Assembly: GCA_011033025.1 (NCBI GenBank)
Contig: WFMF01000055.1
Span: 674,222-738,221 of the forward strand
Length of the DNA stretch: 64,000 bases
From: Beroe forskalii
Lineage: Eukaryota > Ctenophora > Nuda > Beroida > Beroidae
Direction of reading: 5' to 3'
Below are positions 1 through 51,100 of the stretch, piece by piece. The position numbers and the translations under genes are program-made. Numbering within the stretch: position 1 is the stretch's first letter; each line of letters starts with the position of its first letter. A model generated the notes under the pieces. The model made no database searches and was not told the DNA's origin. It saw only the letters and a program-made list of their open reading frames with translations.

Positions 1-3000
1 GCTTGGACGAAAGAAATATCTACGCTCCCTAGATTCTAGGAAAGTAAGCTCGCTATTTTGGTACTGAAAAGCTGAAAAGGTGGAGGTGGTTCCTTTACTC
101 CCTTCTCTATTGGTAATGTTACTCCGTAAGTTAGGTGCCTACATTGATGCTGAATGTGATTCTGTCTTTGTTTTCTGGCCCTTTATTTGTTTTTGTCAAT
201 TTGATAAATCAACGTTCTTGACGTCACGGGGTCACATGGTATGATTCGTCACAGAATGAACGTTGACGTCATAACTATTTGAGTGGGAGGGCACTAAATT
301 ATTTCCCCGGCCACCGCTGACGTTTTCAAACGTCATCAACACAATCCTCCGTAAGTTCATTAAAATGCGGATGCCCTTATCGCAATCACATGCTTTCACT
401 CGTGATATAGCGAAATAAAACAGCGCTTGACTTGGACTAAACTGGGATCAAGTTTCCTTCAATTTATTTACTTCTCCACTACTTCAAACAAGACTTCAAA
501 CAAGGTAGCAGGTGTGAGGGTGTTATTGTTGTGTTGCCATGGTAACCTTATCTCTTACAGCACTTATGCTTTGCACAATTCCTCGAAATATTTTCTGCCT
601 AAGTAAGTCATGTTTGTGTCTCATACATCAGTTCTTATCTCTTTTATTCCCATTTTCTGCGGAATTTGTTCTGACGAATACAACTTCTACGTTTGTTGAC
701 ACGTGACCATGTGTTCCCATGGCAGCTGAGAAAAATATTATTTTACCGAATTATCTTACAAGAAATGCCATACACTTCCATTTCTTAGAATTATAGCAGT
801 TGTTTAGCACTCAATATATTGATTAGAATGATATTATATTGTCCCAGCCGAAAATCACATGATTTGTTCATTTTGCGGTTCCTTTGGCAGGAGTTAGCAC
901 AATATGTTTGTCTCAATAGGATTCACTCGTTATGAATCATTGCTTCAGCCACTATATTATTTTGTGTAATTAGAGTCTCATTTGTATGAAGTACGTATTT
1001 TGGTGGCACGCACAAAAACTAACATATGACCCTCGAGACTTAAGATTATTTCTCTGATTTTGTTGAGGATTTTGGTGGTTCTGAGAATCCGTGAGTTACT
1101 ATCGTGTGCCCCTGGGCACTAATTCGAATTTAATATCTGCCACTAGTATTTCCCGAGATCACGAGGAATTTCACTCCTCTATTCGTAGAGGTTGCATTTC
1201 GTGAGCGCTGTTCGAGCTTACAGCTGATAAGGGGGGGGGGGGGGGGGTGGATGAACCAAGCAAATGGAAAACCGCCACTTATGCCGACACTTGCGTACAA
1301 TCGATTAGCTTCTAAAGCAGATGGTAAAATAAAAACGATAATTGCCTATTTAGATGGTAGAACAGAAAGCTAGTTAGATTTTCCCATAATCTGGGTATTT
1401 TTCCCTGAAATGCACGTCTGGTTGAGTATTGAGTCGGAACATTATCTACTTTCACAGTTTCACTGGGATATATTCATTAAATCCTAACAAGTCATTCGTC
1501 AGATTCAAAAAATCAAACGGTTCGTTGATTTTGTTGTATGATGTTCTGTGCGATCGCCATACTCTTAACTTCATTTCGCCAGCAATGATTAGCAATATGG
1601 CCATACTTGAGTACCAACTGCGATGCACTGATTTATGATTTATCTATTGATTTGGGCGAAAAATTAATTGAGGAATTGATAATCACATTTGCGGAATGGG
1701 GGATTTCAGCATTCGTTACCTGGATTTTGACATTGATAATGAATGGTACCTACCCAGAGCGACGGTTTCGGGTCTAAGTAGGTGATTATGTAATTATAAA
1801 GTTATAACTTCAAACTACGAACACGAAGGGAAAATATTTTGTCGTGAATACCTAAACGTTTACTGTTTAGACATAATATAAGATATTAAGACAACCCAAA
1901 AAACAAGGCTAGAAGCGGCTAGAGGTAATGCCACTCGAAACTAGGAAGAACTTTGTCAGGAGCGTGGAAAAGGATGTGAGGTTTTACATATCAATGTCAA
2001 AGTAGTAGCATGATAGCGAGTAATTCGTGTGTATCGTTGTACAGTGTACACTGTACAGTGTACCTACTTGTACATGTTAAGTTGTGTTTTGGCTCTTGGA
2101 GGGCTTTTGTTTCACATGTAATGTTATAAGCTGCATAAGTATAAGTAGTCATTATGACAAAACACACTTACAGTTTTGGCGTTATGGTTCATGTATTGAA
2201 CATTCTGCCCTTCCAAGCATATTTCTGGCGTCAAGTATTTTAGATTTTCTCATTTTCAAGTTCAATCGAAGTGTCCATCGTTCACAAAACAGCTGATTGC
2301 TGAGTTTTGCCAGTTTAATGGGCGGTGCATTGCAGAGTTTATCTACTTCTAAAGCATGAAGTTGATAACAGCATGTTGCACCAGTATCATGTTGCATTCA
2401 CTGCTTATCAGCATCCAGGGCCATGCGAAATAATATTTAACTTGTGAGCATAATTTGGCCAGTTGCCAGCGCTGATAACGGCGATTATGTTAAAGTTCTC
2501 TGCAATCAGATGGGTCAAAACACCGCCATATAAGGCAATGCCAACGGATTGAGATCACTTGAAACGTCATCAATAAGACCAGGTTCGCAGGCATGATAAA
2601 TGGATGGTACGCGTGATTAGTAGATTGTTAACGTATAAAACTGTAACATGAGATCTCTGATCAGTGAATCTGTGCTCTTCTATTGTTAATGCTTTAATGA
2701 GTCATTCTTTGTAGAGGACACTGTTTTAGATACTTAAGATTTACTTACTACTCTGGTTTAATATTTTGTTGGTCATTGTTCCAACATTGATCTGAAATGT
2801 AAAGAATTCCTGCTGCGTTTTTAGGTATATTGCTTTTGATTGAGTACCGATTGACGAATCATACTTCATTCATGGCTTTTATTCAATGGTTATTCAAAAC
2901 AACTAAGAAAAAAATCTTAATAATGAGTACGCCATTTAAGTTTTATCTTCCACAGACTCTTTGTAATTTGAGTACATTATCTCAAAAACGACAATTAAAT

Positions 3001-3357
3001 CTAACCAATATTTGCCTTTCTCAGTTGGCTACATGCATTTGTTTTATCAATTTCTTTTTAGCCACTTCATGTTATTGCTTTATTGCATGGCTTTCGCTGG
3101 ACTACTACCATTAATTATCTCACTTTGCTGTTATTTTCGGCATATTGTGGACTGGTGATCAAATATTTTCCCAAGCTTCACATGATAATAACCAGAATGC
3201 AGAATTGTCCATAATAAGGAAAGGAATAGCCTCTACGGCATGAAAACCATTTGGTACATTCATTCTAATTCTTCCCCATCCCCCTTTTTCTCTAGTCTCT
3301 AGAAATAACTTTCTCCTTCCATCTAAACCTCTTCTGCATTGCATATATACCCAGCAC
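1..3357. other. Upstream flank, no gene recognised
   Basis: I see no convincing coding exon on either strand; open frames here are short and lack domain-like sequence. A run of 17 G lies at 1231-1247. A palindromic TGTAC-rich stretch lies near 2038-2063. The last 150 bases before the host gene start are pyrimidine-rich on the plus strand. The stretch presumably holds the promoter and any 5' UTR of the fibrocystin-L-like gene, but no core promoter can be assigned. Confidence 0.5.
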
Positions 3358-3415
3358 ATGAAGATTGGTACAGTATGCTTTCTCATCTCTCTACTTGTAG
3401 CACTATCATCTGCTG
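3358..3415 (+). CDS. PKHD1L1: Exon 1: signal peptide of fibrocystin-L-like protein
   Basis: The ATG at 3358 opens a 19-residue hydrophobic leader beginning MKIGTVCFLIS and ending ALSSA, a good signal-peptidase site, followed by a GTATG donor at 3416 (phase 1). It joins in frame to the next exon at 3651. A polypyrimidine-rich stretch ending in CCCAG lies immediately 5' of the CACATG start, so a spliced or trans-spliced 5' UTR is possible. The start is chosen because it is the only Met ahead of a leader in frame with the PAN/apple-like exon. Confidence 0.8.
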
Positions 3416-6400
3416 GTATGTGTGAATTGAATCTCTAATTGTCCAAGATAGGAAATTTTACAGATATGCAATATATGTTAGTTTGTAAAATCAGTCGGCG
3501 TCTTTGGTCCTTTCTTCTTTCCTAAGATATCTGCGTTTTTCCAATTTATTTTCAGTGCTGATCAAGTAAAACTGTTCAAAATGTGATATAAAATGTCCAA
3601 ACATCACCTTACTCATAAGTCGTGCTGAATAAACCCTTCTTCCATTCCAGAACTAAAGTGTGAGTGGGAATACAAGTCCAAGTCTTATCTGGCCGGCTGG
3701 GCTACATCGCAAGTCAAGCTAAAGAAGTTCGCTACTCTAGAGGAGGCCCAGGCGGTCTGCCTCACACTCGGCGATGACTGTGGTGGCGTGACGTACTCTA
3801 AAAAATGGTGAGGAAAGATTAAGTAAATCCTCTGATATATAGTACTCTAAAAATGGTGATATACTCTAAAAGTGTTACGTTATCAGATAAGGATGATAAC
3901 AGGAAAGGTCGCCGGTTTTTAAAGGTTTTTATCTGTTGATCAGATTCTTGATCAGCAGACAATCAGAGTCCGGCGAGCTCTTCTGTTCACCTAATATCCT
4001 CAAAACTGCAGATTTCAATAAATATCTTCTTATCAGGCAGTACACGTTAAGAAGGGGAAAGGAGTTCCAGAGCAATAACCCCGAGCAGAGTTGGATGAAA
4101 GTCTGCAATGAGTCCCATGTTTTATTGAAAACTTAGTGTCTTGAAATTGGCGAGCATAATTAGCAACTTCCAATAAATACATAAAAAAATGACAAGTTTT
4201 CAATGGACACATCCGATTGACACCTCTAAACTCTCCATAACGGTGTGTTCTACTGGAACCCACCAGTTATTCAGAAGTTTCTCTTTAGATTTAATTGATA
4301 TCACCATTCCCCATTTCTCTTTAGACTTTATTAATATTACCACTCCCTTCTCTTCAGATGGCGTCCAGGAAGGGGAAGTAGAGTGGGAGGCACCCGCATT
4401 ACCATCACCGGTCAAGGTAGGTTGAGTCCAGGAAGGGAAGTGGGAGATGGGTGGGAGGCACCCGCATTACCATCACCGGTCAAGGTAGGTTGAGGGGAGT
4501 AATATGACTTGTAGTGTAGTTTGTTGCGGACTAGGGGGGGTCTCAAATGTTAGGGTAATCTAAAATAATGGATATTTTCAAATGTAGCAATCTGAAACTG
4601 GAATTTGAGTAGCACCTTTGGTATGTTATGATGAAAATTGAAAATACAAGACTATGATGTGCTCTGTTTATCACATTATGTCAGTACGCATGAACCTAAA
4701 TCCCCGTGCTAAACGTTAAATTCTTTATTTCAAAAAATTTAAAATATCATTTCCTCACCTAGAATATATTAACAGCATATAAATTTTACATTTTGGGTAA
4801 ATATTTTATAACGCTGGGTAGTTGAATATCAACCCAACATATAAAATGTACTCAGGGTTCAGCAAGAACCAGCTGGATTTCTCCAAGGGCGCTGACCAGG
4901 CTGCGTCTGGGGTTGGTAACGAGGTTACTCTCTACCACAAAGAGGAAATGTATGCCCCTACCCGGTGCAAGGTGGTATCCTACTACACCACCCCAACACG
5001 CATTGTCTGCGATGTCGTGTGAGTGTTATTGTATTTTCGTATTACCACCCTACCTATTACCACCCTACCTATAGTTGTTAAATTTGTCAAAAATCTGGGA
5101 AAATTGTTAAATTCGGCACTTTTTCGACACAAATATCAATGGCAGAAGTACAGAATTTGGTAAATTGATTTGATGAATTATGCATTTCGGTAACCTGGAA
5201 CTTTTCTAAGATACTTTCCCCCCCCCACTCCCGTAGTCCCCCTTAGAGTTTCCCCAAAATTACTAATGTTCTTAACTTTTCCAGGAAACCGGAGGTGTAC
5301 TGGCAGAACGACTTGGAGTACCGACTGAAGATCTCTGTTGACGGAACCTGGATGCAGAACCAGATGGGATCCACCATCTACTGTTGGGGCTCCTGCAGAT
5401 TCTGGTTTAGAATACATGCTGCAATTCGTGCTGAAATGTTTGACGTTTGTGGAAAAAAAGAAGTTCCTTTAGTGAATGGGGGAAAGTTGACAGTAATTAT
5501 TCTAATCAAGTCAGTTTTCACCGTTAACCTATTTTCGAGTAGTAGGCTCAACCATAAAAAGTATCTCAGTCCACTTATATTTTCTGGTTTGACAACGACC
5601 GAACTCCCATCGTGAACTCCATCGCTGCAAACCACGTGCCAGCCGGATCTCTGATAACAATGAATGCTAAGATGTGGACTGCAGACTTCGAGGCTACCTC
5701 GGGGGCCGATAGCGAGGCTGACTACATCTCCAGGGCTTATCTCAACTCATACATCTGTAACAACACAGATGCGGATGGGTTCTCGTGAGTTTTTAAATCG
5801 TGAAAATCGATAATAGAATCGTTTAAATCGTTAATAACTGAATTTAATCATTTCAGCGGAATTTAATTTGAATGATGCTGCTTGCCAAAAAAGTCGTACA
5901 GTTTCTCCAACTGACTTTCCCTACAGATACGGAACTGTCCTTGACAAAGATAGTGATGGCGAAGACCTTACAACAGGGAAGATAAAGTGTAAATCAAACA
6001 ACCCCGGTGCAACCAGCTACAGACCTTCCTTCTTCCATTCAACTTGGGGCAGGTCAGGGAGAAAGTCTGATTTCTAGGAATTGCTTCGTGTTAAGCTAAT
6101 TGATATTTTCAAATAACTGAAATGTACTGCTTAGGGAGTTATTTGAAAACGTTCAAATGATACGAAGAGTTTTAAAATCAGGAGTTTTAATTGAGCTAAT
6201 CGATTCCGCATTTGAATGACCTGCATCTGTCTTCAGGTCAGAAACAAGCAGCAAAGCAAATAGAGTAGACAGTCAAATGCAAGTGTACGCTGTTCAGACC
6301 TACAATGGTGGGTTACTAGTCTTGCTTTTTGTTGTAAAGTTTAAAACGAATATTATTTATCATGAAGTGTGACTCAGAAGCAACGCAATCTTGAAATTGT

Positions 6401-9400
6401 GAGCAAGGATACTTAGAACCAAGCCAAAGTTATAAAAGAGTTATATCGCATGTTTATCCTCTTAATTTTGTCTCTTTCTAACAGAAATCAGTTCCATTTC
6501 ACCCACAAGTGGTAGTGAGAACGGAGGAACAAAGATAACCATTACGAGTGAATACGTCACCGGACCTAAGGAGGACATCGAGGTCCAAGTAGGAGGTGAG
6601 AAAGTTATTTCTGGCAGGATGCCAGCAATCATAATATGAGTATATGATTGTTGGCATATTGCCAGAAATGATTCGTGATCATCAAGGAAGACAGTTTTCC
6701 ATTTCAAAGTTTCCGCATCAAATCGTTTACTTCACTTTCATTCGACAATATTTTCATGGACCTTCCAAAAAACCCTCTTCTTGTCTCTGCAGGAAACGAG
6801 TGTCAGGTTGAGTCCTTTACCTCCTCTGAAATTGTGTGTAGCACCCCTGCTCAGAAAGACAGTACTGTCTACCCTGGCAACAGGTAGGTTATCCAAAGTC
6901 TTATCTGTACCTTAGATAAAGTGTTACCATTCATTCGTTCAAATTTGGTTGAGTCACGGCTTAAATTGGGCAAGAAATAATCATTACGACTGAAATTTCA
7001 GAAAAGTCCAAAATGTGAAGAACGTGTTATTTGGCTCTAGCTTAGTAAATACAAGGTATTTGATACTTGTTCTTTCATGACAGACACGCTACGGTCGAAT
7101 ACTGGGCAAAAGAAAGTGGAGCAACCGACTTCGCTGCGAAGACCATCGATATAGAGACCATCAGGACCATGAACCAGTCAACAGACAACTTCCTGTTCGA
7201 GAAGACGGCAGATACCACCTCACCTCTCAGTGTGCAGGAGTGAGTAGATATCTTATAAAACCCTCTGACGTTTTCATGCGGGTCTATAATATGTAGACAC
7301 TTGCCTGATCGGGTCCACATTGGTTTAGAGCCTCGCCCTACGGGCTCGGGCCAAAACCGGATACATCCCTCGGGCTAAAGCCCTCTGGAAGCATCCCAAA
7401 ATGGACCCGATAGGCGCTTGTCTATGTATTTCATACATCTAGAAAAGGTTTTAAGTGATCTTAGAGAAACCGTTGGCATTTTGATCAGTTGATAATTCCA
7501 GTTACCAAATCAGAAGATATTTGAACAGGATATTTCCAATTTATTTGTAATTTTGTCCAGGATTAACGGAGCTAGCACTGCGGAACCCTACTACATTCGG
7601 ATGCGATTCTACCTCAACATCCAGGAAACTGACTTGTATGGGTTCCACATGATAACTGATTACAAAGGCAAACTCTATGTTAGCACGGACGAGACCCTAG
7701 AAAATGCGGTGAGTCACTATTCTTACACATTAGCTTTGATTCAGTTGTTAAGTGAATGGATGATATCTTTCGTATTCCACGAGATAATATGAATTCTATT
7801 TATTCCTCCACTTTCAGGTACTGAAACTAGAAAGCGATTCGACCAGTACCAAATGGGATGCCCTCCAAACACCAGTAGATACCTCTCTTGAAGCAGGCAA
7901 AGTCTACTTCGTAGAGTTCGTGGGGATTCTAGAGTCCTATCAGCAACATGTTGGAGTGGGACTCACCAAGAAAACCACCCCTTATCAGCCGTATGATGTT
8001 GCTCAAAGCAGGATTGATAAGCCCACGTGGCAGTGGACACAAGAACGTGTGCTAGAACAACAGGTAAGTGATCAAATGATCGGGTTTTTCTTGTTTCTAT
8101 CACATTTTCAAGTTCTCTATTAATTTCCCAAATTTAATGGCCATGAAACGTTTTGTCATTTTGTTATCCTGTACCTATTTCAATTTGAAGCACTGAGCAC
8201 CCGAATTGTGACTTCATTCCTTATTAACCAAAATTTCTACATCTCTTTCTTCTCTATTCTTGTTCTATCTATGTGGAGGATTATCTTATTAAATTCTACT
8301 TGCTGCAGGAAGTTTCTCTTGGAGGACTTGTCAATAAACCGACAGTCGGATTCAAGCTCAAACTGGGTGAAAGAGAAACCACAACGCTGTATCCCACATC
8401 AACATCTGACGAAATCGGAAACGCCATCATAGGTAGGTATTGCTGGAAGAATTGTATAAAATCGAAAATCATTTTGCAACAGTTATTATCAACGAAGCTT
8501 GAACGCACTATATTTAAGTGTTTATTTGGACATTTGTCACATTTCTCTATTTCTGCTGTATAATGTGGCAAGATTTACATTTATTTCGTCCTCATCTCAG
8601 TGACATATCTCTGCATTGACACTTTTGTGACCAATAGGTCCCAAACACTTCGATATCGCAAGCATAAATCTTCATCAGTTGTCAAGTTTGATTGTGTGAA
8701 ACTATAGTGTTGCATTTTTGACTTCGCATCAATTTATCCTCACTTTCCCAATAATTCTATCTTCTCTGCAGACACTGCCTCGTACAAGTGCCCTACCCTG
8801 GATGCCACCGACAACTTCTGGTACTCTGAGGACTTTGAGTCAGACCAGATGTACTTCTGGAGAGACTGGAGGGAGGCCTACTGTGGAAGAAGGTATGGTG
8901 GCATTTGATAATTTGTATGGTGGCATTTCTTGATTTTCATGGTGTCATTTCTTGATTATCATGGTGTCATTCCTTAACGTTGTCATTGACAGACATGGAG
9001 ATTTTTTTTAAATTACTGATCAAAAATCAGTTTAAAATAGAGAATGATTTTAGCTTATATGTATGCTTTCAGCTTATATGTATGCTTTTCAGAGTGAACA
9101 TCAACAACAAAGTGATCTACCAGACCAATCCTGACAAGGGCATCTACAACTGGGACCCTACGGGAGCCTACAAACACGTAATGAGTTTGTTGGTTGTTAA
9201 TTAATTACTTAATTGAATCTGCTCATTCTTATCAATCTTTTCAATCAATCTTTTCAATCAATTCTAATCCGATACCTTTAAAATGGCTTTAAAGCACATT
9301 TACGTTAAAACGCACCAATGTTTTAGGTTGTTTCATCGTAATGACTTTCAGCAACTTTTCTGTTTCCCTTCGCTTACCATATTGTCACCAATTACCATAG

Positions 9401-21400: not shown

Positions 21401-24065
21401 CGAGCTACACCCTATGAAATGCGTCCTTGAATATAAAATTCATTTCATATTTCGTGCTTTTTCCTATGGAGGCTAACTTCAGCGACCACTGGGCGTTTTC
21501 AATCAACCCATTATTTATCAGGCATGTTTTACACTTCTTAGCTTCACAGATCATGGCACTGTGTAAACTGTAAACTGCTGCGGTGCAAAATGTCACCGAC
21601 CGAATGTTTTTGGTTTTTTCTCTGAATGGATGAACCATTACAGGATGTTGATAGAAATGGTTTACGTTATATTATTTAACTGACAGCCCGTTCGCCGAGT
21701 TTGAAATCCAGATTACGGAGCGGCCTCGTACTTTTTTCGGATCGTTAAATAATAATGTTTCTACACACGGATATCGGTGTGGATTTCCCATATTCCACTC
21801 GGCTTCTCCTCGAGGAATATTCACCAATCCACACCTCAATAGTGTGTAGTAACATCATATTATACCCTTGTTTTAGCGACCGTGTAAGTTTGGTTATACC
21901 CCTACCAAGCTTGTTTTAGCGACCGTGTAAGTTTGGTTATACCCCTCCCAAGCTTGTTTTAGCGACCGTGTAAGTTTGGTTATACCCCTCCCAAGCTTGT
22001 TTTAGCGACTGTGTAAGTTTGGTTATACCCCTCCCAAGCTTATTTTAGCGACCGTGTAAGTTTGGTTATACGGTCTCCACTGAATAACAGTGCAAATTAT
22101 CGTAAAATGAAATTTTACTTTATAAAGGAGCACTTAAAAATCTACTTAAGCGTTGAATCCGGACGAGGGTCGTCAGACCCGAGTGGGAAGAAATAGTAAA
22201 TACTGTTGTTTGGTCGCAGAAAAGTCGGTCCCAGCTGTTTCCGGTCGGGGTATAATCGGGTTCCATGATCTCAGCTGTGACCGTATACCTTTGATAATGA
22301 ACTCGGCACGCCTCGTCCATTATCCAACTTACACAGTCTCGGCTGTCGCCTCGACCAAGTAAGTTGCGGTATACGGTCACCACTTCGAAAATTATACGGT
22401 CTCCACTGAATTACAGTGCAAAAAAGCTAAAAATTAAATTTGATTTTATAAAGGAGCACTCAAAAATCTACTTAAGCGTTGAATCCGGACGAGGGTCGTC
22501 AGACCCGAGTAGGAAGAAATACTGTTGTTTGGTCGGAGAATAGTCAGTCTCGGGCCCGCAGCCAGGATTTTTTTTTCCGGGAGGGGCCCTTGCGCAGCAA
22601 GCAAGCTGCGCCAGGGTCTGGGAGCGCAGCCCCCAGCGGGGTCCAGGGGCGAGCCCCTGCCAGGGGTTAGAGAGCGGAGCCCCCGAAAAATTTTAGGGAA
22701 ATTAGGGTGCTGCAGGATGATTTTTACAATAAAGAAATGTACAGGAAATGTAAAGGACGATAATGAGAGCATCGAAAAAGTATGCACTCAAATATAAACG
22801 AGCTATAACAGTCAGAATAAGATTAAACAGCCACTATTTAACCAAGCCAAAGTATATATTAATATTATCAGTCGAAAAACTTTTATTCTCACTATTTTTT
22901 GAATGATACCTTTTCTTCCGAGGGGGGCTGCAGCCCCCCTAGCCCCCCCTCTGTCTACGGGCCTGGTCAGTCTCAGCTGTTTCCAGTCGGGGTATAATCC
23001 GGCGGGCCCGCAGCCAGGATTTTTTTCCGGGAGGGGCCCTTGCGCAGCAAGCAAGCTGCGCCAGGGTCTGGGAGCGCAGCCCCCAGCGGGGTCCAGGGGC
23101 GAGCCCCTGCCAGGGGTTAGAGAGCGGAGCCCCCGAAAAATTTTAGGGAAATTAGGGTGCTGCAGGATGATTTTTACAATAAAGAAATGTACAGGAAATG
23201 TAAAGGACGATAATGAGAGCATCGAAAAAGTATGCACTCAAATATAAACGAGCTATAACAGTCAGAATAAGATTAAACAGCCACTATTTAACCAAGCCAA
23301 AGTATATATTATGATTATCAGTCGAAAAACTTTTATTCTCACTATTTTTTGAATGATACCTTTTCTTCCGAGGGGGGCTGCAGCCCCCCTAGCCCCCCCT
23401 CTGTCTACGGGCCTGTAATCTCAGCTGTGACCGTATACCTCGACCATGCAGTCACCACTTCGACATGTAACCGCTTATTATACACGGCACTAATGCTTCA
23501 CGCCAAGACGGTTGAAAATGAATTTCCAACCGTGCGTTATATAAAACATTTATCATAGCCACGTTTTGTTCTCTTCTAATCTTAACGACTCACTCGCAAC
23601 GCTCATTTGGCGGTGAGGTGAAGATCAAATGAGGTGAAGGCGCATTATTCAAAGATAATGCGCGCGATGCGTGCGTTATGTATGGAGGTATTCGGTCATT
23701 TGGCCTAACTGGACATATTCTGGCCTAACACTGGTTAGGGTCAGGAGAGAGAGATAAATTCATTTTTTTAGAGTACTTCTTGAGTTTAAGGCGTTAGGCC
23801 AAATGACCTAGAACATAGATCACAGCGTGGCAGTGATTTATGCATACATACAGACGATAATTTCAATGCTGAGACAAAGGCGTGCTTTATCATTTATGAA
23901 ACAGGTTATAAATTCAAATTGAAATAAATTTGATTTTGGAACCCTATTGATTTAACTAAGATATCAATAATAATATCATATCTTATTTCAACCAGTGTCT
24001 CAGGAGTGATCAGTTCGGTTTGTACGCAAAGGAATCACGGTTTCAACTTTTACATAATTATCAAC

Positions 24066-24100: not shown

Positions 24101-27100
24101 CCGGGCAATATTCACTGACCACCCCCTCCCCTTGCGGGGGTTGATGGCAACTCTCCACAACGGAGAGCTCGACTGGAACTCACCTGGTTGCACTAGAGAA
24201 ATAGTAACCCCTTACCTGGGCACCAGGTGATGATACCCTGACGGGTACCAATTGAGCGGGGGCGCCCCTCCGAAGATTGACTACCTTATTATTAACAGTG
24301 TATAATTATGATCTTCCTGGTTTATAGCTATGTTGGACCAAATAATTTGAGAGGGTTTATCATAGGCATCGCTGCGATTTTCATCAGCTTCTATAATAAT
24401 ACGCGTTTACCTATTCGAGTCCATATTGGTTTAAGTATAGACCCTCGGCTTACGCCCATGAGCTGCAGGTATGAAATGGAAGTATCCACAGGAAGTATCC
24501 TGAAATCTTACGCCCTTACGCCTCAAGTCCATGTTATCCGTGCTTGTGAGGAATGGAATAAGTCAAATTCGTGGTATTTCGAGAAATTTCCATCTCAGTT
24601 CCTCCACTATAAAGGGTATGGCCTTTAGAGACTTTCCAGGGTTGTTAGAACTTTCCAGATATACTTCCGTCCGTTTCTGATGTATCAAATCTTCAGGATA
24701 CGACTCAGACCTCCTCGGATACGGCCTTCTTCTGTGTCACCGGGCCTAACTCACCTGGAAGTCACGACGTTGTTCTGGTTAAAGGGGATGGAGAGCGGTC
24801 CGCCAGCACTCTGACATTTGCTTACACTCTGACGGTGAGTTAGATATGACATTCACTGACAGTAAGTTAGATATGACATTTGCTTACACTCTGACGGTAA
24901 GTTAGATATGATATTCACTTACACTCTGACAGTAAGTTAGATATGACATTCACTTACGGTTAGTTAGATATGACATTCACTTACGGTAAGTTAGATATGA
25001 CATTCTCTTACGGTAAGTTAGATATGACATTCACTTACGGTAAGTTAGATATGACATTCTCTTACGGTAAGTTAGATATTACATTCACTTACGGTAAGTT
25101 AGATATGACATTCACTTACGGTAAGTTAGATATGACATTCACTTACGGTAAGTTAGATATGACATTCACTTACGGTAAGTTAGATATGACATTCACTTAC
25201 GGTAAGTTAGATATGACATTCACTTACGGTAAGTTAGATATGACATTCACTTACGGTAAGTTAGATATGACACTCATTTACGGTAAGTAAGATATGACAT
25301 TCTCTTACGGTAAGTTAGATATTACATTCACTTACGGTAAGTTAAATATGACATTCACTTACGGTAAGTTAGATATGACATTCTCTTACGGTAAGTTACC
25401 GGGGGCAGTTTGAACTGTGCGAATTACGTTCGTACGGCGTATATACGTATATACATATAGACATGTTTGTACGCCGCGCACCTAAAAGATGCGCAAGCTG
25501 CAGTTTAAAATTTCACTGTAAGTATGACATTCAATCGCCCTTTAACGGTATGTTAAAGATGGCTATTGCAATGAAATGAATCATGGGTTAACACACTGAA
25601 ACAGTTAAAAACGGCAAGAAGTGATCAAAACAGCTAAAACCGTTCACTTACGGTAAGTTAGATATGACATTCACTTACGGTAAGTTACCGGGGGCAGTTT
25701 GAACTGCGTGACTTAAGTTCGTACGGCATATATACGTATATACATATAGACATGTCTGTGCGCCGCGTAAACATACGCCGCGCACCTAAAAGATGCGCAA
25801 GCTGCAGTTTGAACTTTAACTGTAAATATGACATTCTTTTACACTTTAACGGTAGGTTTTTTGTTAAAGATGGCTATTGCGATGAAATAGATCATACATA
25901 AACACGCTGAAAGAGTTAAAAACGGCAAGAAGCGGTCAAAACATGGCCAAAACTGCTGAACACAGGTAAAACTGCGTAACACAGCTAAACTGTTCAAAAA
26001 TTGTTTAAAACATTGCAGGTGAGCTCCATCGTCCCAGCCGAAGGATCAGTAGTCGGGGGTACCCGTGTCACGATCACCGGAACAGGATTCGGAACAGACA
26101 AGGATAAGGTACCTTACGAGATTTACTTATGAGATTTACATTGGACAATTCTGGGGGTCGAAATTTTGGGGATATTGCACATGTTAATGAATGATGATGG
26201 CGCCATATATATTGAGATTGTGTTGGAAACGAAAATATGGTGTTGTAGAGTTAGGAACTGGATTTCTTATTTACCGCTAAATTATTTCCTTGTGTTCGTT
26301 TGGATATAAATGTCATAAATCGGGAATTTTTGCAAAAACCCCCAAATTTGGTACCTTATAAAAATATGTCTCGTAAGGTGTTTGTGGAGATGGGTGATAT
26401 GGAGTGCGATGTGGATTCAGTGACTGATGACACGGTGCTGTGCGTTCCTCAGCCTGCTACCAGTGCTGATCTCCTCTCATCGGAATACAGTAAGTCTGAT
26501 TTTAATTTTAATTGGTTTGTTGAAAAATGATGGTTTGTATTATCAAAGTAGAATGTGCTTCAAGATGTTTCATCTTGAGGGATTTAGAAATTTGAATACT
26601 CAAAATACAATTATTTTGCGATTTTATTGCTCTTGACCCTGATTCTTCTCATTGCAGATGCTGTGACGAGCTGTGCTGGTTCTGATGCACTGACTGAAGT
26701 ACAGAAAACCGCACAAAACACCCACAACATGTACCGTAGAATGCACGAGAGTACTCCGGATTTGTGTTACTCGCAGGATGTCGCAAAAACTGCCAAATCA
26801 TGGGCCAAATATCTGATAGACAACAACCAGTTCAAAGCGAGTGCTACCAGCTATAGAATCATGAAACAAAATATTGAACCGACCGGTTACCGACCGTTAA
26901 CCGATCAACAAATTGCCGGATTTTACACCCCAAAAAAAGAAAATGCACTACGTTCTTTGTTTCTCTGTCTATAACTTCCTCTTTGTTCCAGCTACCGAGA
27001 TAACCGAGGTGAGAACATCATGAAGTTCGAGCATTGGGACTTGCTGAGTGACGCATCGTACATCAGCAGTGCTATCAGGTCGTGGTACAACACAGGGGCT

Positions 27101-33100: not shown

Positions 33101-36100
33101 TGGTGGCAGCAAGGAATCAGATCAAGATCGACGGAAAGAGGGTCGAGATTAACGATACAGTGCAGATATTCGAGTTCAAAGCAGAAAACACACCCATTGT
33201 GGCCTCCATCAGTCCAACCACAGGTTTTACAAATTTGGAGGGCATGATTTTATATTGTGTTAAGGAGAAAATTTTAAAAAAATGGAATGAAACAGTAAAA
33301 CACAGAAATCAATGCTAATATAATTAATGAGAAAATTTCAGGACACAGCCTTTTCCTCTACGTCTATACCGCTCTACTATTCATCTTCCATGCATCACAT
33401 GCATCACTTAGCTCGGTTTCTTCTTCTCGTTCTTGCTCAGTTTCGCGATGAGCTCCACCCATCTGCAGATATATCGATGCCTGCAAATCCCATCATACTC
33501 ACACTTCATGAGATTATTCCCACATTTCCCCTCCGCTGCCAGTTTCCTCCGCTCCGCATCCTCCTTCTCAAAGTCGACATCGCAAAGCTGACAGGTTCTC
33601 CTGCACCCCTTGTAGGTGTCCACAGACTTATCATGACAGATGTGTAGCTGACAGTCTGGGTTTGTATCTTTACACACCTCACCCGGATCGGTGTTTCGAG
33701 GGTTGTAAGCTGTCTCTTTATCATCTCCTGTGAATAAATAGGGTGTTGTGATGTTTTCTCAGTAGAAATCGAACTTCTTAAGTCGTTTACATAGCTCTCA
33801 AAGAGAGAACTCACGGGGCCCAAGAATAAATAAACATCTCCCTTGAGATCTGACAAACGATAGTTTTGTTAAGTCAACAAACTAAATATTTACATAGAGG
33901 TAGAGCACTTTTGTAACACAGACATCATCACTTTCATCAGTACCTATAAAGAAATATATCACGATTATAGAATATCATCTCCTGTGTCATCTGTCACTGA
34001 GAGTGTCTTGAGAATGGGAACAGTTGAGAGGTTGTAGAGCGCACAGTTGTGGTACCCCCGTGTAAACTTCACAAATCCTTGGTCTCCCCAGTCCCTCCCC
34101 CAGGAATTCTTCACCAGGATATACTCCGGACCATACCCCACCATGGTTATGGCATGGTTAGGTCGATCTGTCTTACACTGGGATGTCTTGTCCATGTAGA
34201 TGCCTCGCTCGTAGAGGTAGAACCGGTCAGTGACCCACATGCTGGCGGATATAGCAGTGTATAGGAGGGCTTCCAAGTGGTCCTGCTCTGTCTTCCCCAC
34301 CACATGAACCTCAGTTAGCACAGCTCCTATCAGACCATTAGGGTACTTAGCAGAGTCACACACGTTGTCTAATTCTGAGTAGGAAGGGTATTGGGACGCC
34401 CTGCTCCAGCGTTGGTTGTCTATCACGTATTTGTAGGCGTAATCCGGTCTTCCGCCGTCACATGCAGTCTTCCAATAGGTCCACTTGGAGGTGTCCACCT
34501 GTACAAAGTTGGAGGATGTATTGAAAAGAAGGTTTGAAAATATGTCAAGTTTTGGAATATAATATGAGAAGTTTCTTAGTAGTTTGGGAGTAATTATGTA
34601 AAATTAAAAATAAAGCTCAAACTCAAAGTAAACGGGAACCATATTATTATCAAAAAACTGAAAACTAAAAAACCTTCTCGTAAGAGCAGTCGAGCACTTC
34701 CTGCACGGAGAACTTCTTGAGAACTCCGGTTGCTATGGCGTAGTTAGTCTCCACTGCTCCAGCCGCTGCAAACGCCCAAGCTGAGCCACACAAGCCCTGG
34801 TCCATGACTTCAGTAACATACCCGTCCGTCCAGAACCATTCGTTGGGGAGAGTTGAGCGTTTCCTTGAGGAGGAAGGGGGTGTGTAGACAGTCTTCTCTT
34901 CCTCTTCCGTAGTGTTCCGCTGTCCGGTGGTCCATTGGAGACGCTCCTCTGCTGTGTACAGGGAGAACTTGTTCACTGTGAAACGCAAGGTCTCCTCCCT
35001 TCTGCTGCGTTTTCAGCTGCAACCTGCTCCACGTTTTTCTTGAAGATAGCCCATCGTATCGCGTCTTCTTTCCCCGTCCAGTTCAGGTCTTGATCTGCTT
35101 TCAAGTTGTCATAAAGCTCCCGAAGCTTAACAGGATCACTTATAATGTCTTGGATTGTGTTGTTTTTACTAACTGACAGAGCAACAAACGCTGTCAATAG
35201 AATTAGCAAAAGTCTCATGATTGAGCAGAAATCAATCTAACGACGAGACTGATATAAGCAAAATGTTGAATCAAAGTAGTGGTTATCAAAATATGTTTAT
35301 TGATAAACTGCCAAAGATTTCTCAGCCTCGCCTATTTATCATCAGTCGAGTCTTTTGTTACCGTCAGGACAGAAGCACTCATGTGGTAAAACGTGTTGTA
35401 AAACCTTGACTTTACAAAGTCTCAGACATTATTATTACTAACGTTTTAATTAAAAAGTAGAGTAATTGAAGGGCAGGGCTAGCACCTGGAATAAAGGAAA
35501 CACAAAACGAATGGCATTTGAATATTCTAATCAGTTAATTAGCAGCTTACCATTATGACGAAGGGCACGGGAATAAAAGCTTGAAAATGTTATTTAAGTG
35601 ACGCAGAATGAACAACAAAAAGTTTAATTAGCGTAAGCAGAATTTCGTCTCGCTTGTAACAGTGATTGAATTGTCACTTGAGCTCTGCTAAGTTAAGGAC
35701 GTGACCTATTATGACGTAGCATAGGCTAGTAAAACCTCTGCAATGTAGATTGATTATTACAAGCAGATAGTCACGTTTCTTATGAATTTATGACCTGATT
35801 GAGGGTTTTTCTGTCAGGCTGTACTATGAAAGCTGTACTAAGATTTATGTGACAAAAAGGTGTTTAAGCCCAAAAATGTGTTTTGCTAGGACATAAACGA
35901 AGCAGAAGGATAGCTTTGAAACATTCTGGCGTTAGATGTGTCTCTCACTTAGGTCCTAAGAAACATAGTTACAGCTCAATCGGACAAACTTTTGATTTCA
36001 AGATCTGGATTGGTGGGTGAGTTTGTACTTTTTCTATTAATGATATGCCTAAAAATAGCTTTTTCAGGAGCCAATAACGACATCATCACAATAACTGGAT

Positions 36101-42100: not shown

Positions 42101-45100
42101 GTTCTTTGTTTAATCCTGGGTCTGATAAAGTCGGACAAAGCGGATTCAAAACGACAGAATGTCGCTCGGAATCATGGGAATCGAGGCCTAATCCCATAGT
42201 CAGGGATTAGACATGTACCTACTTCTGTTATCCGAGCTTCCGAGATTGCGAATTCGTACTCTTCTGATTTAGATGATTGGGAAACGGCCAAGATAACGGC
42301 CTATGAAAGTTCCTCAGGATTGTGAACCGCCGCTCAAATCAGGACACCATGAAATTTTCTCATACAAATCTACGATAAACGCAGATAACAGATGATTTTA
42401 GAATCAGCAGGTCTTGCCAGTGCCATTTTGAAGCTGATAATTGCGATTACTTGGAAAATGGAAGCTTAAGTTTATACATTGAGAGCCAAGAAATACATTA
42501 GTACTATACAAGGTTAAAATTGTACATCCCAATCAGGAGTCGAGTGTCCCCAGTCAGATCACATGACAAAGCAAGGGACACTCTCCCTCAACCAATGATC
42601 GAGCAGAACAAGGTTCACGTGACTGATAGAGAAGGAGGAGGAGGAGGAGGAGGAGGAAGCAAGCAGTATCTCTTTTACCATGAAAAGATCACGGAACCGA
42701 CATTTCATCTCGCGACACTTCATCTCACGACATTTCATCTCCGACACTTCTTCTCAAAGTACGAAATTTCATCTCGTACTGTTTATCGATTGTATCTTAA
42801 AGTACGACGTTTGATCTCCATGGTGTGACGTTCCATCTCAAAGGGTACGACAATTCATCTCTTACTGTAACTTGATTGAACTCTAAAGTGCGACATTTGA
42901 TCTCCAGAGTGCAACGTTTCATCTCAAAAATTTTGACACTTCATCTCTGGGCATGACACCTTTCAGTGTACGACCCTTCATTTCAGACTGCGACATTTCA
43001 TCGCTGGGTACAACACTTCATCTCAGGGTAGGAAATTTGATCTCAGGGTACGACACCTCATCTCAGTGTACGACCCATCATCTCAGACTGTGACATTTCA
43101 TCTCTAGGTACGACACTTCATCTCAGACTGCGACACTTCATCTTTTGGAACGACACTTCATCTCAAGGAACTACACTTCATCCAGGGTACGACACTTCAT
43201 CCCAGGGAAGGACACTTTATATCTGGGTACAAGACTTCATCTCGGGGTACGACACTTCATCTCAGATTGCGACACTTCATCTCTGGGAGCGACACTTAAT
43301 CTCAGAGTACGAAACTTCTTCTTGGGGAACGACACTTCATCTCAGACTGCGGCATTTCATCGCTGTCCTGTTCCGACAGGATGGCAACGGGGAGGAACGG
43401 GACTCCCGTCCCATCCGGGAGCCTGGGGAAGTTTATACATTGAGAGCCACGAAATACATTAGTACTATACAAGGTTAAAATTGTACATCCCAATCAGGAG
43501 TCGAGTGTCCCCAGTCAGATCACATGACAAAGCAAGGGACACTCTCCCTCAACCAATGATCGAGCAGAACAAGGTTCACGTGACTGATAGAGAAGAAGAG
43601 GAGGAGAAGGAGGAGGAGGAGGAAGCAAGCAGTATCTCTTTGACCATGAAAATATCACGGAACCGACATTTCATCTCGCGACACTTCATCTTACGACATT
43701 TCATCTCCGACACTTCTCAAAGAACGAAATTTCATCTCGTACTGTTTATCGATTGTATCTTAAAGTACGTTCCATCTCAAAGGGTACGACAATTCATCTC
43801 TTACTGTAACTTGATTGAACTCTAAAGTGCGACATTTGATCTCCAGAGTGCAACGTTTCATCTCAAAGGGTACGACACTTCATCTCTGGGCATGACACCT
43901 TTCAGTGTACGACCCTTCATTTCAGACTGCGACATTTCATCGCTGGGTACAACACTTCATCTCAGGGTAGGAAATTTGATCTCAGGGTACGACACCTCAT
44001 CTCAGTGTACGACCCTTCCTCTCAGACTGCGACATTTCATCTCTGTGTACGAAACTTCATCTCAGACTGCGACATTTCATCTCTCGTTACGACACTTCAT
44101 CTCAAGGAACTACACTTCATCCAAAATTTTGACACTTCATCCCAGGGAAGGACACTTTATATCTGGGTACAACAATTCATCTCGGGGTGCACTTCATCTC
44201 AGATTGCGACACTTCATCTCTGGGAACGACACTTAATCTCAGGGTACGAAACTTCTTCTCGGGAACGACACTTCATCTCAGACTGCGGCATTTCATCGCC
44301 GTCCTGTTCCGACAGGATGGCAACGGGGAGGAACGGGACTCCCGTCCCATCCGGGCGCCTGGGAGCTCGGAGGCGCTTGTGTTGGCCACTAACTTCCTCT
44401 CCTGGGTGCCGCCTGGGCCCTCGCTGGCCCATCCCCCTTCTAGTAGTAGCGGCATTTCATCTCAGACTGGGACGTTTCATCTCTAGATACGACACTTCAT
44501 CTCAGACTGCAACACTTCATCTCTGGGAAGTGTCGTACCCTGAGATGAAGTGTCGCAGTGAAAGATGAAGTATCATACCCGCCAGAGAGAGTGTCGCAGT
44601 CTGATATGAAGTGCTGCACCCTGAAATGAATTGTCGTACCCAAAGATGAAGTTTCGTACCCAGAGATGAAGTGGATCGCAGTCAGAGATGAAGTGTCGTA
44701 CCCAGAGATGAGATGTCGTACCTTGAGATGAAGTATTGTACCCTGAGATGAATTGCAGCATACCCAGAGATGAAATGTCGTACCCAGAGATGAAGTGTCG
44801 CAGTCTGAGATGAAGAATCTTGACGAGGGATGAAGTGTCGTACCGAGAGATGAAATGTCGCAGTCTTAGATGAAGTGTCGTTCCACTTCCATGAGATGAA
44901 GTGTCGTACCCTGAGTTGGAGTGTCGTACCCTGAGATGAAGCGTCGTATCCTGAGATGAAGTGTCTTTCATTGAGATGAAGTGTCGCAGTCTGAGATGAA
45001 GCGCCTTATCCAGAGATGAAATGTCGTAGTCTGAGACGAAGTGTCGTACCCTGACATGAATTTTCGTACCCTGAGATCATGTTTCCTAACCTGATAAAAG

Positions 45101-48100
45101 GTGTAATCCCCAGAGATGATGTGTCGTAGCCTTGGAGATGAAACCCCGCAATCTCGAGATCAAATGTCGTACTTTACAGTCAATCAAGTTCCAGTAAGAG
45201 ATGAATTGTCGTACCCTTTGAGATAAAACGTCGCACCCTGGAGATCAAACGTCGTCGTACTTTAAGATACAATCGATAAACAGTACGAGATGAAATTTCG
45301 TACTTTGAGAAGAAGTGTCGGAGATAAAATGTCGTAAGATGAAGTGTCGCGAGATGAAATGTCGGTTCCGTGATCTTTTCATGGTCAAAGAGATACTGCT
45401 TGCTTCCTCCTCCTTCTCTATCAGTCACGTGAACCTTGTTCTGCTCGATAATTGGTTGAGGGAGAGTGTCCCTTGCTTTGTCATGTGATCTGACTGGGGA
45501 CACTCGACTCCTGATTGGGATGAACAATTTTAACCTTGTATAGTACTAATGTATTTCTTGGCTCTCAATGTATAAACTTAAGCTTCCATTTTCCAAGTAA
45601 TCGCAATTATCAGCTTGAAAATGGCACTGGCAAGACTTGCTGATTCTAAAATCATCTGTTAACTGCGGATCTATCGTAGATTAGTAGATTGGTATCAGAA
45701 AATTTCATGGTGCCCAGATTTTGAGCGACGGTTCACAATCCTGAGGATACCGTTATCTTGGCCGTTTCCCAATCATCTAAATCAGAAGAGTACGAATTCG
45801 CAATCTCGGGAAACAGAAGTACAGGTGTAATCCCTGACTATGGGATTAGACCTCGATTCCCATGATTCCGAGCGACATTCCGTCGTTTTGAATTCGATTT
45901 GTCCGACTTTATCAGACCCAGGGAGTTTGGCAACGCCAGACATTATAATCCCTTCAATTTCATGACTGATACTTCCATACTCATGATGAAAAAAGAACAA
46001 AACAATAAAACGGATTTTTTAGTGTTTCGCATTTCACAGATCTCGGGATCGGAATAAGCTTCAAGACTGCCGAACGATGAAATAGAATTAGGTAGAGGGC
46101 CTACTCGTTAAAATATAACAAACAGGGTCACAATTAGCTGGATTTCTTCATGGTCAAAGAGATACTGCTTGCTTCCTCCTCTATCAGTCACGAGAACCTT
46201 GTTCTGCTCGGTCATTGGTTGAGGGGGAGTGTCCTCTGCTTTGTCATGTGATCTGACTGGGGACACTCAGCAGTCACATGCAATTGCAACCTGACTCCTG
46301 CTTGGGATGTACAATTTTAACCCTGTATAGTACTAATGTACTTCCCAGCTCTCAATGTATAAACTTAAGCTTCCATTTTCCAAGTAATCGCAATTATCAG
46401 CTTGAAAATGGCAATGGCAAAACTTGCTGATTCTTAAATTATTTATATCTGCTCTATCATAGATTGGTTAAGAAAAATTCCATTATTCAATAAAGGTAAG
46501 TCTTGCCAATGCCATAGATAGCACATAGAATTGACACAGACAACTCAGATCCGCGAACGCGCATAGAATTACAATTGCGCGCGCGGAATCCTGAGCGCAC
46601 AAAGTACTAGCAGGCGGATCACGTGACAGGTCACGTGATGTGACGTCACGAAACAGAAAAACGCCCAGAGGCAAGGAAGACATTGTCCAATTTCAAAAAA
46701 CTTGATATCCTCGTGATCAGCTCACTGAGATCTACAATCGAGTCAAAGTGCCTAAAAAACTTTGAAAAAAGGGCGCACCCTATTTTGCCATTCCCCCAAA
46801 TACTTTTCACATACCAATTGATCAATCAATATTAAGAGAATTTTGGGTTCTTAAGGGTAATCTAATGCGACCCGGTATCACCATTGAAACATATCTCTAA
46901 CCAATAAAACCCCCACTAAACCCATATATAATAACTTAACCCACATAAAACCCACATCTCTCTTACCAATTAACCCGCACTTAACCCATTTTAACCCAAT
47001 AAAACCGGCCCTAAACCCACTTCAATCCCACAGAGGCTGTGCGGTCCATCACACTTTCAACCGGGCTGTGACTGTTCACGGAGTTGACAACCTACTGGTC
47101 GAGAACAACGTAGCCTACAATAACATGGGTCATGCCTTCTTCTTGGAAGATGGCATTGAGGAGAACAACGTGTTCAGGGGAAATCTGGCCATCTTCACCC
47201 GGTCCAGCTCATCCCTCCTCAATGTAGATGTTACCCCGGGTAATGATTGATTCTTCCCCCCCTATTTCACTGTGCTAGTGGATTTATTGTCGATCTTACT
47301 CTTTATCTTTCCTAGGAGGACTCCCTTCTTAAATGCTCGATCATGTAAATCTTATTTGAATTTGATTCCTTGCCAATCGCTCCCCCGGCGACTCGGCGTC
47401 CTTTTTGCCGTTTTGGCATTTTCACATTTTATTTGGTGAGCAGTTTCTAACCTTCTTTCTCTCTTCAGCTTCCTTCTGGATCGTGAACCCGGTGAATACC
47501 TTTGAGAACAACGTGGCTGCTGGATCAACCCACTTTGGTTTTTGGTTCAATATGCCCGGACACCCTGGAGGTCCATCAGCCACCAATACTGTGTGTCCAA
47601 GGAACAAGGGCATGCTCAAGTTCTCTGGAAATGAAGCTCACTCATGTGGACGATATGGTAAGCATTATTCGAATGTTTCTCTGATTTTCAACGAATATTT
47701 CTCTGATCTTTTTTCGGTTTGATTGTAAAAGAGCCAAGAAATTGATTAAATATTGTTTTCCTGATCAAATATTGTTTTCCTGAAGTTTTACATACTGCTT
47801 ATTATCTCCAATTTGTTTTGTAACTTTCCAAATCCCATAAAATTAACGATTTTTGTCAGGTATCTGGGTCTGGGAGCATTGGAACCCGAAGGGTGACGGC
47901 AGCTGCGGAGCTACAGAACCCAAAATGACAACCCTCGAAAACTTCCACGGATGGCACAACTTGAAGGGTGTTGAAATCGAAACAGGTTTGTGTTTTAAAT
48001 AAAAATAAAAAAGTTTCGTCCTCATGAAATTGACCCGGACCGAATGATCCTATCGGAACTCTTGAGCTGTTCACTTCTTACTTCCTTATTCCTAAAACTG

Positions 48101-51100
48101 TTTGTTTTTCCTAAAACACTTCGTTATTTCTATCTCTCAGGAAGTGGTATTGAGATGAAGGACTTCACTCTCCATGACAACTGGGACTCCCAAGTGGAGG
48201 TACACAAGTGTGCAGATGCCTCTTTCGAACAGGGAAACACCAGGCTAAGTTTTAATTGTCCATTTGACATCGAGTCAATACATGATCCCGAATAAATTAT
48301 AGAAAATTTGATACCACTTATGATTCTAAAAAACTGTTAGCGATCCTTCCAAAGATAGAAAAGTCCAAAAAATTTTTGAAGAAATACCTTCACTGAAGAT
48401 GAGAAAATGGACTAATTTCCTCATTTCCAGCTAACAGACTCGCTGATTATCGCTAAAACTCCCTCCTCTGACGGCCTGAACATGTGGTACAAAGGAGACA
48501 AGGTCTACAAGTGCGGACTTGGTGTTCTGATCCCCGGAAAAGGATACTTCTCCGTCCATGATACCACTTTCAAGGACTTTACAGAGTGCGATGTGTTCGC
48601 CGCGTGCGGTGGATGCAGGGACGACTTCATCGGAGGTAATTCGAAAATATTAATCGTAATGGCTTAGCTCATCCAGTGCTTCTCATGCAGGCTTCCCACC
48701 ACTGCATGCTCAATGAAATTCAGGACTTTTTGTGGCGAATTTGCACCTTCATCCACCTTGTTTTTCTAATAATTCAGTCCCAAAGATTACCTTTGATTTT
48801 GAAGCAACCCCTCCCAGGTTTCCCATCTGAGTACAAGGGTATCACGTACCAAAACAGTCCCCGAAAAGGCTCCTTCAAGTGGCAGTTCGAAGCTATCCTC
48901 CGAGATCTGGACGGCACCCTGTCCGGAAGTAACAAACCCAATGGAGTGATCACTCCTGATATGGATGTGTTGGACCCATCCTCCTGTGTGGATGCTACGG
49001 GATGGGGAGATGGGGCAGTCAAAGGAGTTGTGTGCGATTCAAAGGTAATATACTAATATAGAATTCATATTCATTTTAATTCAAATCTTACTGAACATTT
49101 CGATAGTTTTAGATTTTGAAAGCGAGAGTTCAAATACTTCATTAAAATAATTTCGTGATTTCACTTTAGTAACTAGCATCAATCAATGTTCTTCTTTTCA
49201 GACGAATCTGATCCGTCTGTCGTGGAACAAACCTAGTCTGAGCTACCTGATGTTCAAGGAAGTAGTGGTTACCAATACCTACGGAGCTATCACTACACCG
49301 TGGGTGATGAAGAGACTCACTCACAAACAAGGCTGGATGGTGACCGTGCCATCAGGTCACGATGGGGGTTTTGATTTTACCATTAGGTCACAACTAAAAT
49401 CACAATTTATGAGAAAAGCATAGGCCTAGATTTTAGCTTTTTTCTCAAATTGTGGAATTTACAGTTTGCAGAATTGAAAAGCAATAATCAATTGAGAATA
49501 ACTGTTTCTATTATTAAGTATTGTAGTATTGTCAACTTTCAGGTCACAGAATACGAATGGAATGATGTTGACAAGAAGTTCACCAACGTATCATCCAAAT
49601 GGGGCACTATCTAAATGGGATATGTCTCATGAAGCAAGTCCTTGTGAGAGTAGAGTCCAAATTCTAAAAAAGGAAAGGAAGTTTTCGCCTTCATGCTGTG
49701 CATCAAAGAAAATTTGGATTTGTTTTTTCCAATGTCACTGAATTCCTAAAACTGAAATTTTTGCCTGAATCAAACTGCTAAACACCAAAATTTCCTTTCA
49801 GAACCGATTACATCACAGTCGGTGAGCTCCAACAAGAAAGATCGCATTGTTTCCCTGATGACGCTGGCCTTCACCTTCATGGGAGCCTCAAGACCTGTCT
49901 ACCCGATCAGAGGGGATTGGGTGTCACAGGAGCTGCCATGGCCTAATGGTGGGACTATTTAACCTACTTTTACCCAAAATTGTGTTGGGACTCTCAATAT
50001 ATCTGTTTTAAATATTTATGTTTATTAATTCTTGTGTTGGTAGCTCACAAAGACTTTTAAAATTTTTAAAAAACTCTTACATTCCTCAAAAGGGGTACAA
50101 TGCTACTAGAGAACTGCCTCCAAACCTGAACTCCCCCAAACCCAACCCCGAGTCACTCAGAGACCCGAAGAAGTAATTTTACTTATCTCCAATGTTTTCA
50201 ATTAGTTGGGATAATCCAAATTAGGTTGAAATTATAATTTTGAATTCAAGCCTTTACTGATTTTTAAACCACATCCACTGCAGCACTTTTTTAGTAATTT
50301 TATATATTTAAGCAATATGTTTTTCCATTTCAAACCCAACTCCCCTAACCCCAAACCTCAAACTTTCCTCCTTCAGCCAAAAGATGGTCGTATCAGCAGA
50401 TTGGATCGGCACGGAGGAAAGGGGTGGTTTTAACGGGTTCCCGCCCGTCCGGTATATGTTATTCCCCCCCAGCTGGTGGATGATATACGATACTAAGATG
50501 GAGGGCTTGACACGGTGGACAAAGATGGCTGAAAATTTTTTTTCAAACCNNNNNNNNNNNNNNNNNNNNNNNNNNNNNNNNNNNNNNNNNNNNNNNNNNN
50601 NNNNNNNNNNNNNNNNNNNNNNNNNNNNNNNNNNNNNNNNNNNNNNNNNTACCGGCTTGTCCCAGTGACATCTGCCCTAGTGGGACGGGAGTGTGCGACA
50701 TCGAGGTGGGTAGGAGGACTCAGGAGGTAGCTGAATCTGTCTGGGAAAAATATCAAAATTCATATTTAGGTTGTTACGATCTGTCTGAGCTTCAGAGTAA
50801 AGAACGCTCTAAAGAGCTGTGGACCATCTCAAGCAATCCTTTTTGGTTTTTGAAAAAGTCATATTAATTGTAAACTGTAATTAAAGATTAATTTCCACAT
50901 CATAGGCTTTCAAACATCCAAAAGTGTATCAAAAGACACCATCAACTGATTTACTTTATATCGCAGGTGACAGATTACAACGGAAACACACTGTCTAAGT
51001 CTGACCACGTGTCCTATAAGGCATCCGCCACCCCGACTATTACCAGCATTAGTCCATCAGATGCTGGAACTGGCGGAGGAAAACAGGTGAATTTACTTTC

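Follow-up and report, generated by a model that had tools for sequence, protein, structure and literature searches.

Tandem repeats extending across exon-intron boundaries, termed mirages, have been described in amphioxus at either splice site, with units of 10-72 bp in the Adh3 gene and of about 150-160 bp in globin genes, and splicing was reported to be normal (PMC3087553, PMC3902484). The genes described therein (Adh3, BflGb6, BflGb9, troponin C and PGBD5) feature homogenized units, as does the minisatellite array considered here, which is located within a 64,000-nucleotide stretch of Beroe forskalii DNA, hereafter referred to as the window. Whereas three and six units are given for two BflGb6 haplotypes, the window array comprises 20 downstream units; a further difference is that a dispersed element and a more extensive duplication have added to the length of its intron. 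The idea, credited to Rogers in PMC3087553, that introns are created when AG|GT proto-splice sites are duplicated in tandem likewise involves a tandem duplication carrying splice signals, whereas no new intron arose in the window. Ordinary intronic minisatellites or VNTRs also represent slippage-type arrays of like units; the window array differs from these in being anchored at, and derived from, the end of a coding exon together with its donor. Based on the evidence compiled below, we consider it about 80% probable that the array is a near-neutral slippage minisatellite of the mirage type which is tolerated via use of the first donor.

The sequence-only reading of this DNA had proposed a 27-bp minisatellite of about 20 copies at positions 24775-25396, and TRF analysis of the window confirmed period and copy number (27 bp, 20.4 copies, 90% matches, score 885 at 24832-25398). 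Position 24775 is exonic, however; the array itself begins with the donor and occupies 24835-25399 of the forward strand, with a 27-bp first unit, two 35-bp units and 27-bp units thereafter. Moreover, the proposed end at 25396 does not account for two extra unit starts at 25653 and 25680, located 3' of the array within an approximately 300-bp duplication that includes the array end. Cutting at each junction yielded 20 donor-like unit starts 3' of the authentic donor at 24835, ranging from 24862 to 25391. Every unit had been said to keep an ACG|GTAAGTTA donor; most copies indeed hold a good one (17/20 ACG|GTAAGT, followed by TA in 16 cases and by AA in one), but two read ACA|GTAAGT and a further one ACG|GTTAGT, the authentic donor itself being ACG|GTGAGTTA. 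The two early 35-bp units (24862-24931, forward strand) retain ACTCTGAC of the exon end, which is absent from the 27-bp units, and are intermediate between the exon and the 27-bp unit. The unit stems from the last approximately 24 nucleotides of the exon at 24697-24834: when the final 26 bases of this exon are compared with the unit ending at 24896, 24 are identical, whereas the best of 400 stretches of 560 bases drawn at random from the window attained 17. The proposed origin of the unit as a copy of the upstream exon/intron junction was thus borne out.

The exon preceding the array (24697-24834, forward strand) comprises 46 codons, ends in phase 0 and, as deduced from its sequence, frame and paralogous counterpart, encodes the close of one IPT/TIG-type repeat (DTTQTSSDTAFFCVTGPNSPGSHDVVLVKGDGERSASTLTFAYTLT). 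It is followed on the same strand by the authentic donor GTGAGT with a subsequent TAG in the exon frame (24835-24843), by an intron of 1184 bp (24835-26018) and by an exon encoding the start of the following TIG repeat (26019-26107; VSSIVPAEGSVVGGTRVTITGTGFGTDKDK), the 3' end of the latter being our own reading. A home-made exon chain reaching from C636:634222 to the end of the window (104 kb) consisted of 77 exons, 55 of which scored at least 8. Two tandem paralogous genes, both of which we take to be fibrocystin-L-like, were recognized within these 104 kb by TIG matches in both and by further likeness between translated exons; the tandem paralogs with TIG-type and related exons extend over L070-L073 (C636:634222-674221) and window positions 3651-63713. 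Pfam matches in the window gene comprised TIG, CAP and pieces of the CEMIP beta-helix. Some exon sets occur twice in the window, e.g., at 48818-49044 and 55768-55994.

The array exon alone gave no Pfam match. Joined to the next exon, it formed a pair of 75 amino acids with a TIG match of 46.2 bits, which covers residues 45-74 and hence the next exon, and a TIG match was also obtained in the genome scan. The array exon and the upstream paralogous exon (L070) are both 138 nucleotides long; the paralogous exon ends in KTTTPFTYTLE and is followed by VNAIMPADGSVVGGTRVTI, the corresponding parts of the window gene being STLTFAYTLT and VSSIVPAEGSVVGGTRVTI. The paralogous exon pair, together with a TIG domain that starts in the following exon, supports by homology the assumption that the junction 24834/26019 is real. 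Since the paralog carries an intron of 198 bp (L070:5886-6083) at the same place and in the same phase, an existing intron has grown, and a new gain of the intron by tandem duplication was rejected. No tandem repeat was found when the paralogous intron was searched for one. Furthermore, TTCACTTACACTCTG of the units matches the paralogous exon end at 14 of 15 bases, the present window exon reading TTTGCT there, and the array may thus preserve an older state of the exon end. An apparent frame break was noticed in the following exon of the upstream paralog (L070:6084-6180), where gene damage or an assembly error is possible.

Three features of mirages are present in the window array: the unit spans the exon-intron boundary, including the exon 3' end and the donor; the boundary is real as judged by homology alone, i.e., by the paralogous exon pair and the TIG domain in the next exon; and splice signals are kept, as most downstream unit starts retain ACG|GTAAGT. 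By these features, known here from sequence alone, the array belongs to the known mirage kind. Beroe is probably a new host for mirages, and host and extent represent the new points of this finding; titles and beginnings of abstracts in the open-licence literature contained, among the matches listed, no report of mirages outside cephalochordates. Regarding the gene content of the host, cephalochordates have many nuclear receptors. In the Beroe genome (216 Mb), the nuclear-receptor DNA-binding domain zf-C4 gave no match, as was also the case for the control genomes, and the hormone-receptor ligand domain gave one weak match (E 0.005). Ctenophore nuclear receptors without a DNA-binding domain are described in PMC3038971. 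Wnt exons yielded 11 matches in the genome, and four Wnts are given for Mnemiopsis in PMC2959043. This gene content is consistent with a ctenophore and makes a cephalochordate host unlikely.

In the proposed course of events, a short tandem duplication took in the exon's 3' end together with the adjoining 5' splice site, as can be read from the units themselves. Unit order and likeness suggest that a 35-bp derivative then lost 8 bp and that the 27-bp unit expanded and was homogenized by slippage or unequal exchange. A dispersed element and the approximately 300-bp duplication made the intron larger still. The first copy of the duplicated region (25396-25640, forward strand) contains a piece of the dispersed element, putative decayed unit remnants according to our reading, and other sequence, whereas the second copy (25643-25950, forward strand) carries the array end, the element and the following sequence with the donor-like junctions at 25653 and 25680. 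It aligns with the first copy in three ungapped pieces of 87-89% identity at a spacing of 289-311. The short element itself (25446-25521 and 25750-25825) ends near GCTGCAGTTTGAACTG and has matches on at least 36 other contigs. In a search confined to exact units, eight matches were obtained in the genome, all at the window locus; the view that the array belongs to a dispersed transposon was rejected on this basis, the flanking piece being dispersed.

During splicing, the spliceosome would keep to the exon-adjacent donor (24834/24835), and the whole array would leave with the intron. The array is presumably tolerated because this first donor stays in use, and the donors of the copies would persist owing to the youth and homogenization of the array rather than to selection on donors. 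With the exon closing in phase 0 and GTG AGT TAG opening the intron, use of any later donor would add valine and serine and then a stop, the product being wasted or probably degraded. In-frame extensions of 27 nucleotides (MTFTYGKLD), which the sequence-only reading had suggested, are not in the frame of the exon, as any extension must cross the triplets at 24835-24843; protein extension via later units is excluded for the window gene, provided that the exon frame is right.

Several observations speak against the near-neutral reading. One of six arrays tested, C562, which is not tied to an exon, has a markedly conserved donor core (see below). Moreover, a score of 6.32 was obtained for 17 of the 20 donor copies as compared to 6.45 for the authentic donor (based on a donor matrix), and the similarity of these scores leaves the neglect of the array donors unexplained. 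Shielding of the decoys by RNA structure in favour of the real donor was rejected, since the predicted accessibility of the true donor (2.3e-5) is as low as that of the copies (22 copies, 1.3e-5 to 3.4e-3), the median for 55 other predicted donors being 6.5e-3. As the donor of the array-free paralog also has a low predicted value (6.5e-5), low accessibility is not peculiar to the array, and the predicted fold, in which true donor and copies are equally hidden, does not explain donor choice.

In order to find donor-bearing arrays elsewhere, the genome was scanned for patterns of three donors in a row. Among the matches listed, 20 distinct arrays were recognized, counting adjacent or inverted copies that share a unit as one array, and 5' flanks were read where possible. 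Ten of these arrays lie behind an open frame that ends in the unit and were classified as exon-anchored, namely those at the window and on C1:850k, C44, C209, C248, C455, C658, C2:850k, C77 and C110:121k. A 16-bp donor-like array at C2:379k (L050) runs in the antisense direction relative to an ankyrin-like exon situated immediately ahead of it and was not counted as exon-anchored; no exon was seen at the array edge on C122, C159, C247 and C914, and neither the ambiguous arrays at C343, C562 and C714 nor those with an uncertain 5' edge at C1:1948k and C110:242k were assigned as exon-anchored. The sequence-only reading had named arrays unrelated to exon junctions elsewhere as an outcome speaking against it, and the result is divided, as 10/20 arrays look exon-anchored and 10/20 do not or were not judged. 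An eleventh anchored array, encountered by chance in L046, follows a frame with a coding score of -2.2. The exon-anchored array on C77 is present twice in inverted orientation (417.5-420.3k and 453.5-455.7k), approximately 33 kb apart.

Coding scores of the chosen frames exceeded 8 for five exon-anchored arrays (window, C658, C248, C44 and C2:850k) and ranged from 5.1 to 8.0 for the other five, whereby the window exon was part of the training set and another frame scores higher in the case of C455. As a control for open frames, seven GGTRAGT sites outside predicted exons of the two genes were inspected: three were preceded by frames open for at least 40 codons, and one featured a 30-codon open frame with a coding score above 8. 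For seven tested arrays not called exon-anchored, no stop-free 30-codon frame scored above 0. Apart from the window, NEK1 and Kv cases, the exon-anchored arrays (seven) gave no protein family above the cut-off, and for these, open frames being weak on their own, the case mostly consists in the unit being a copy of the bases directly ahead of the first donor. As judged from homology, the firm exon-anchored cases are the window array, backed by the paralog, and those of a NEK1-type kinase and a Kv1-type channel, the other seven being weaker.

The NEK1-like kinase exon on C248 continues, across an intron at about 400.1-415.3 kb, in a further NEK1 exon on the other side of the array, the joined peptide matching PDB entry 4apc with an E-value of 1.9e-18. 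On C658, with the intron at about 385.8-388.65 kb, the T1 exon of the Kv1-type gene ends in AILYFYQSG, and the next T1 exon is located beyond the array (E 1.4e-25 versus Kv1.1); the first Kv-type exon matched BTB_2 with 48.8 bits. Because the end of the exon that was copied encodes conserved protein in both the Kv and the NEK1 case, these arrays were derived from the exon. In the Kv-type array (L093 with L083 and L094; C658:385.8-387.2k) the exon frame stays open for 167 codons, so that an in-frame extension appears possible, unlike in the window. Furthermore, a second donor-side array was found in the NEK1-like gene after SPELFSNRPYNFK. Arrays also lie on both sides of an exon of the same gene (L095:1886-2642 and 2770-3501, C248:416.8-418.4k): ahead of it is a 22-bp array of 34.4 copies, which may be regarded as acceptor-side by resemblance only, the acceptor of the exon being similar to the unit, and behind its donor is an array with units of 113-146 bp. 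On C110 (L090:3-751, C110:120.5k), an array of 62-bp units with 12.2 copies spans the acceptor and the exon start; the exon at this position is flanked by arrays, its donor also being repeated. In view of the similar copied junctions in other genes of the genome, the window array is probably a young, tolerated repeat.

Genome-wide, triples of CAGGTAAGT gave 91 matches at 12 places as compared to 13 matches at three places for the reversed motif. GGTAAGT arrays accounted for 1780 matches versus 501 in the control, and CAGGTGAGT for 403 versus 54. Since single copies of the donor motif are themselves somewhat commoner than those of the reversed control (1734 versus 1365), the excess of arrays by place is modest (p 0.05-0.07). 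Within the two genes, a junction-spanning repeat was present at 0/54 donors as compared to 123/1997 random non-coding positions (p=0.07); 55 exons reached the score cut of 8, one donor being too near an end, and inclusion of the array exon, which scored 6.3 and hence below the cut, gives 1/55. Junctions as special hot spots were rejected on these counts, and the results read as a repeat-rich genome tolerating junction-spanning arrays now and then. One tested donor, predicted at the exon end 8892 with the sequence AAG|GTATGGTGGCATTT, is followed by a small second array of the window gene (8893-8975, forward strand, 22-bp unit, 3.7 copies), in which the repeat is confined to the intron side. Further features of the window include a 450-bp block in two direct copies that are 98% alike (22551-23428), a piece of a papain-family cysteine protease on the minus strand, inside the region covered by the large gene on the other strand (33965-34603, best PDB match cathepsin H), and arrays of a 20-bp unit (GACACTTCATCTCAGGGTAC) followed by reverse-complement arrays, together forming a large inverted arrangement (42629-45365).

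Among the other explanations considered, slippage promoted by hairpins is the one surviving best. The exonic motif ACTTAC is the complement of the donor GTAAGT and may favour slippage through hairpins, which would also cover donors in the RNA; such a process would add to the preferred explanation instead of replacing it. The exact donor complement is present in 4/20 array units as compared to 0.11 expected from shuffles, and the array is predicted to fold better than 100/100 shuffled sequences (z -6.5). This relation was, however, spotted post hoc, and the excess is weaker when measured against other hexamers of the same units (13/390 with a complement, p=0.004). Moreover, the complement is absent from 16/20 units, and the true donor would be covered too, so that a contribution of hairpins is considered doubtful.

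A second explanation regards the array as a poison-donor throttle, in which array donors are sometimes used, the transcripts stop after two codons and are degraded, and array length tunes the gene. The strong donors of 17/20 downstream starts and the fact that every extension runs into TAG agree with this view. On the other hand, the donor core of the window array is conserved no better than the remaining unit, with changes at 4/145 positions versus 12/383 elsewhere in the unit (p=1), a comparison that was also directed at a sponge or masking role of the array donors. Among the 11 exon-anchored arrays, i.e., the ten listed ones and that in L046, a stop within five codons follows in four only, whereas six run for 14-47 codons and the Kv array remains open for 167. 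Since the paralog also manages without an array, we regard a throttle as improbable.

It is very unlikely that the array represents a selected platform for U1 snRNP, whose recruitment by the donors would guard the long pre-mRNA from early cleavage or strengthen the first donor. The 20 donor-like copies within 565 bp and the occurrence of such arrays in several genes would suit this function, and in the C562 array, which is not tied to an exon, the donor core is conserved (2/726 versus 67/1547 positions changed, p=1.5e-9). Yet no donor-specific conservation was observed in the other five of six arrays tested, among which the window, C658 and C455 arrays are exon-anchored; with donor bases conserved no better than the rest of the unit, a U1 role finds no support in these comparisons. 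The scarcity of junction-spanning repeats at donors of the gene pair (0/54 versus 123/1997 random non-coding positions, p=0.07, the array exon standing outside the 54) likewise looks like avoidance and not like gain. Finally, an ordinary intronic minisatellite resembling the exon by chance, or an exon end derived from the array, is hardly credible: although tandem repeats abound in the window (60 TRF rows, partly overlapping), the match of 24/26 exon bases exceeds that of all 400 controls (17 at most), the window exon is homologous to that of the paralog along its length, and the Kv and NEK1 exons are homologous to solved animal proteins, which indicates that the exon came first.

On a tentative view, held at somewhat below even odds, the conversion of a junction into a minisatellite may represent a recurrent and continuing route of intron growth in this ctenophore, acting at 5' as well as 3' splice sites of conserved genes such as those encoding the Kv channel and the NEK1 kinase, so that either a strict first-donor rule would hold in front of approximately 20 to 70 near-identical donors or array length would act as a tunable switch. 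In view of the arrays in conserved non-chordate genes, mirages do not seem to be a peculiarity of amphioxus, and duplication of the junction is suggested as a way in which existing introns grow. Such arrays constitute natural experiments on 5' splice site choice, offering dozens of near-identical donors among which the correct one is known from homology, and the window array provides a ready test case for how cells pick the right splice site.
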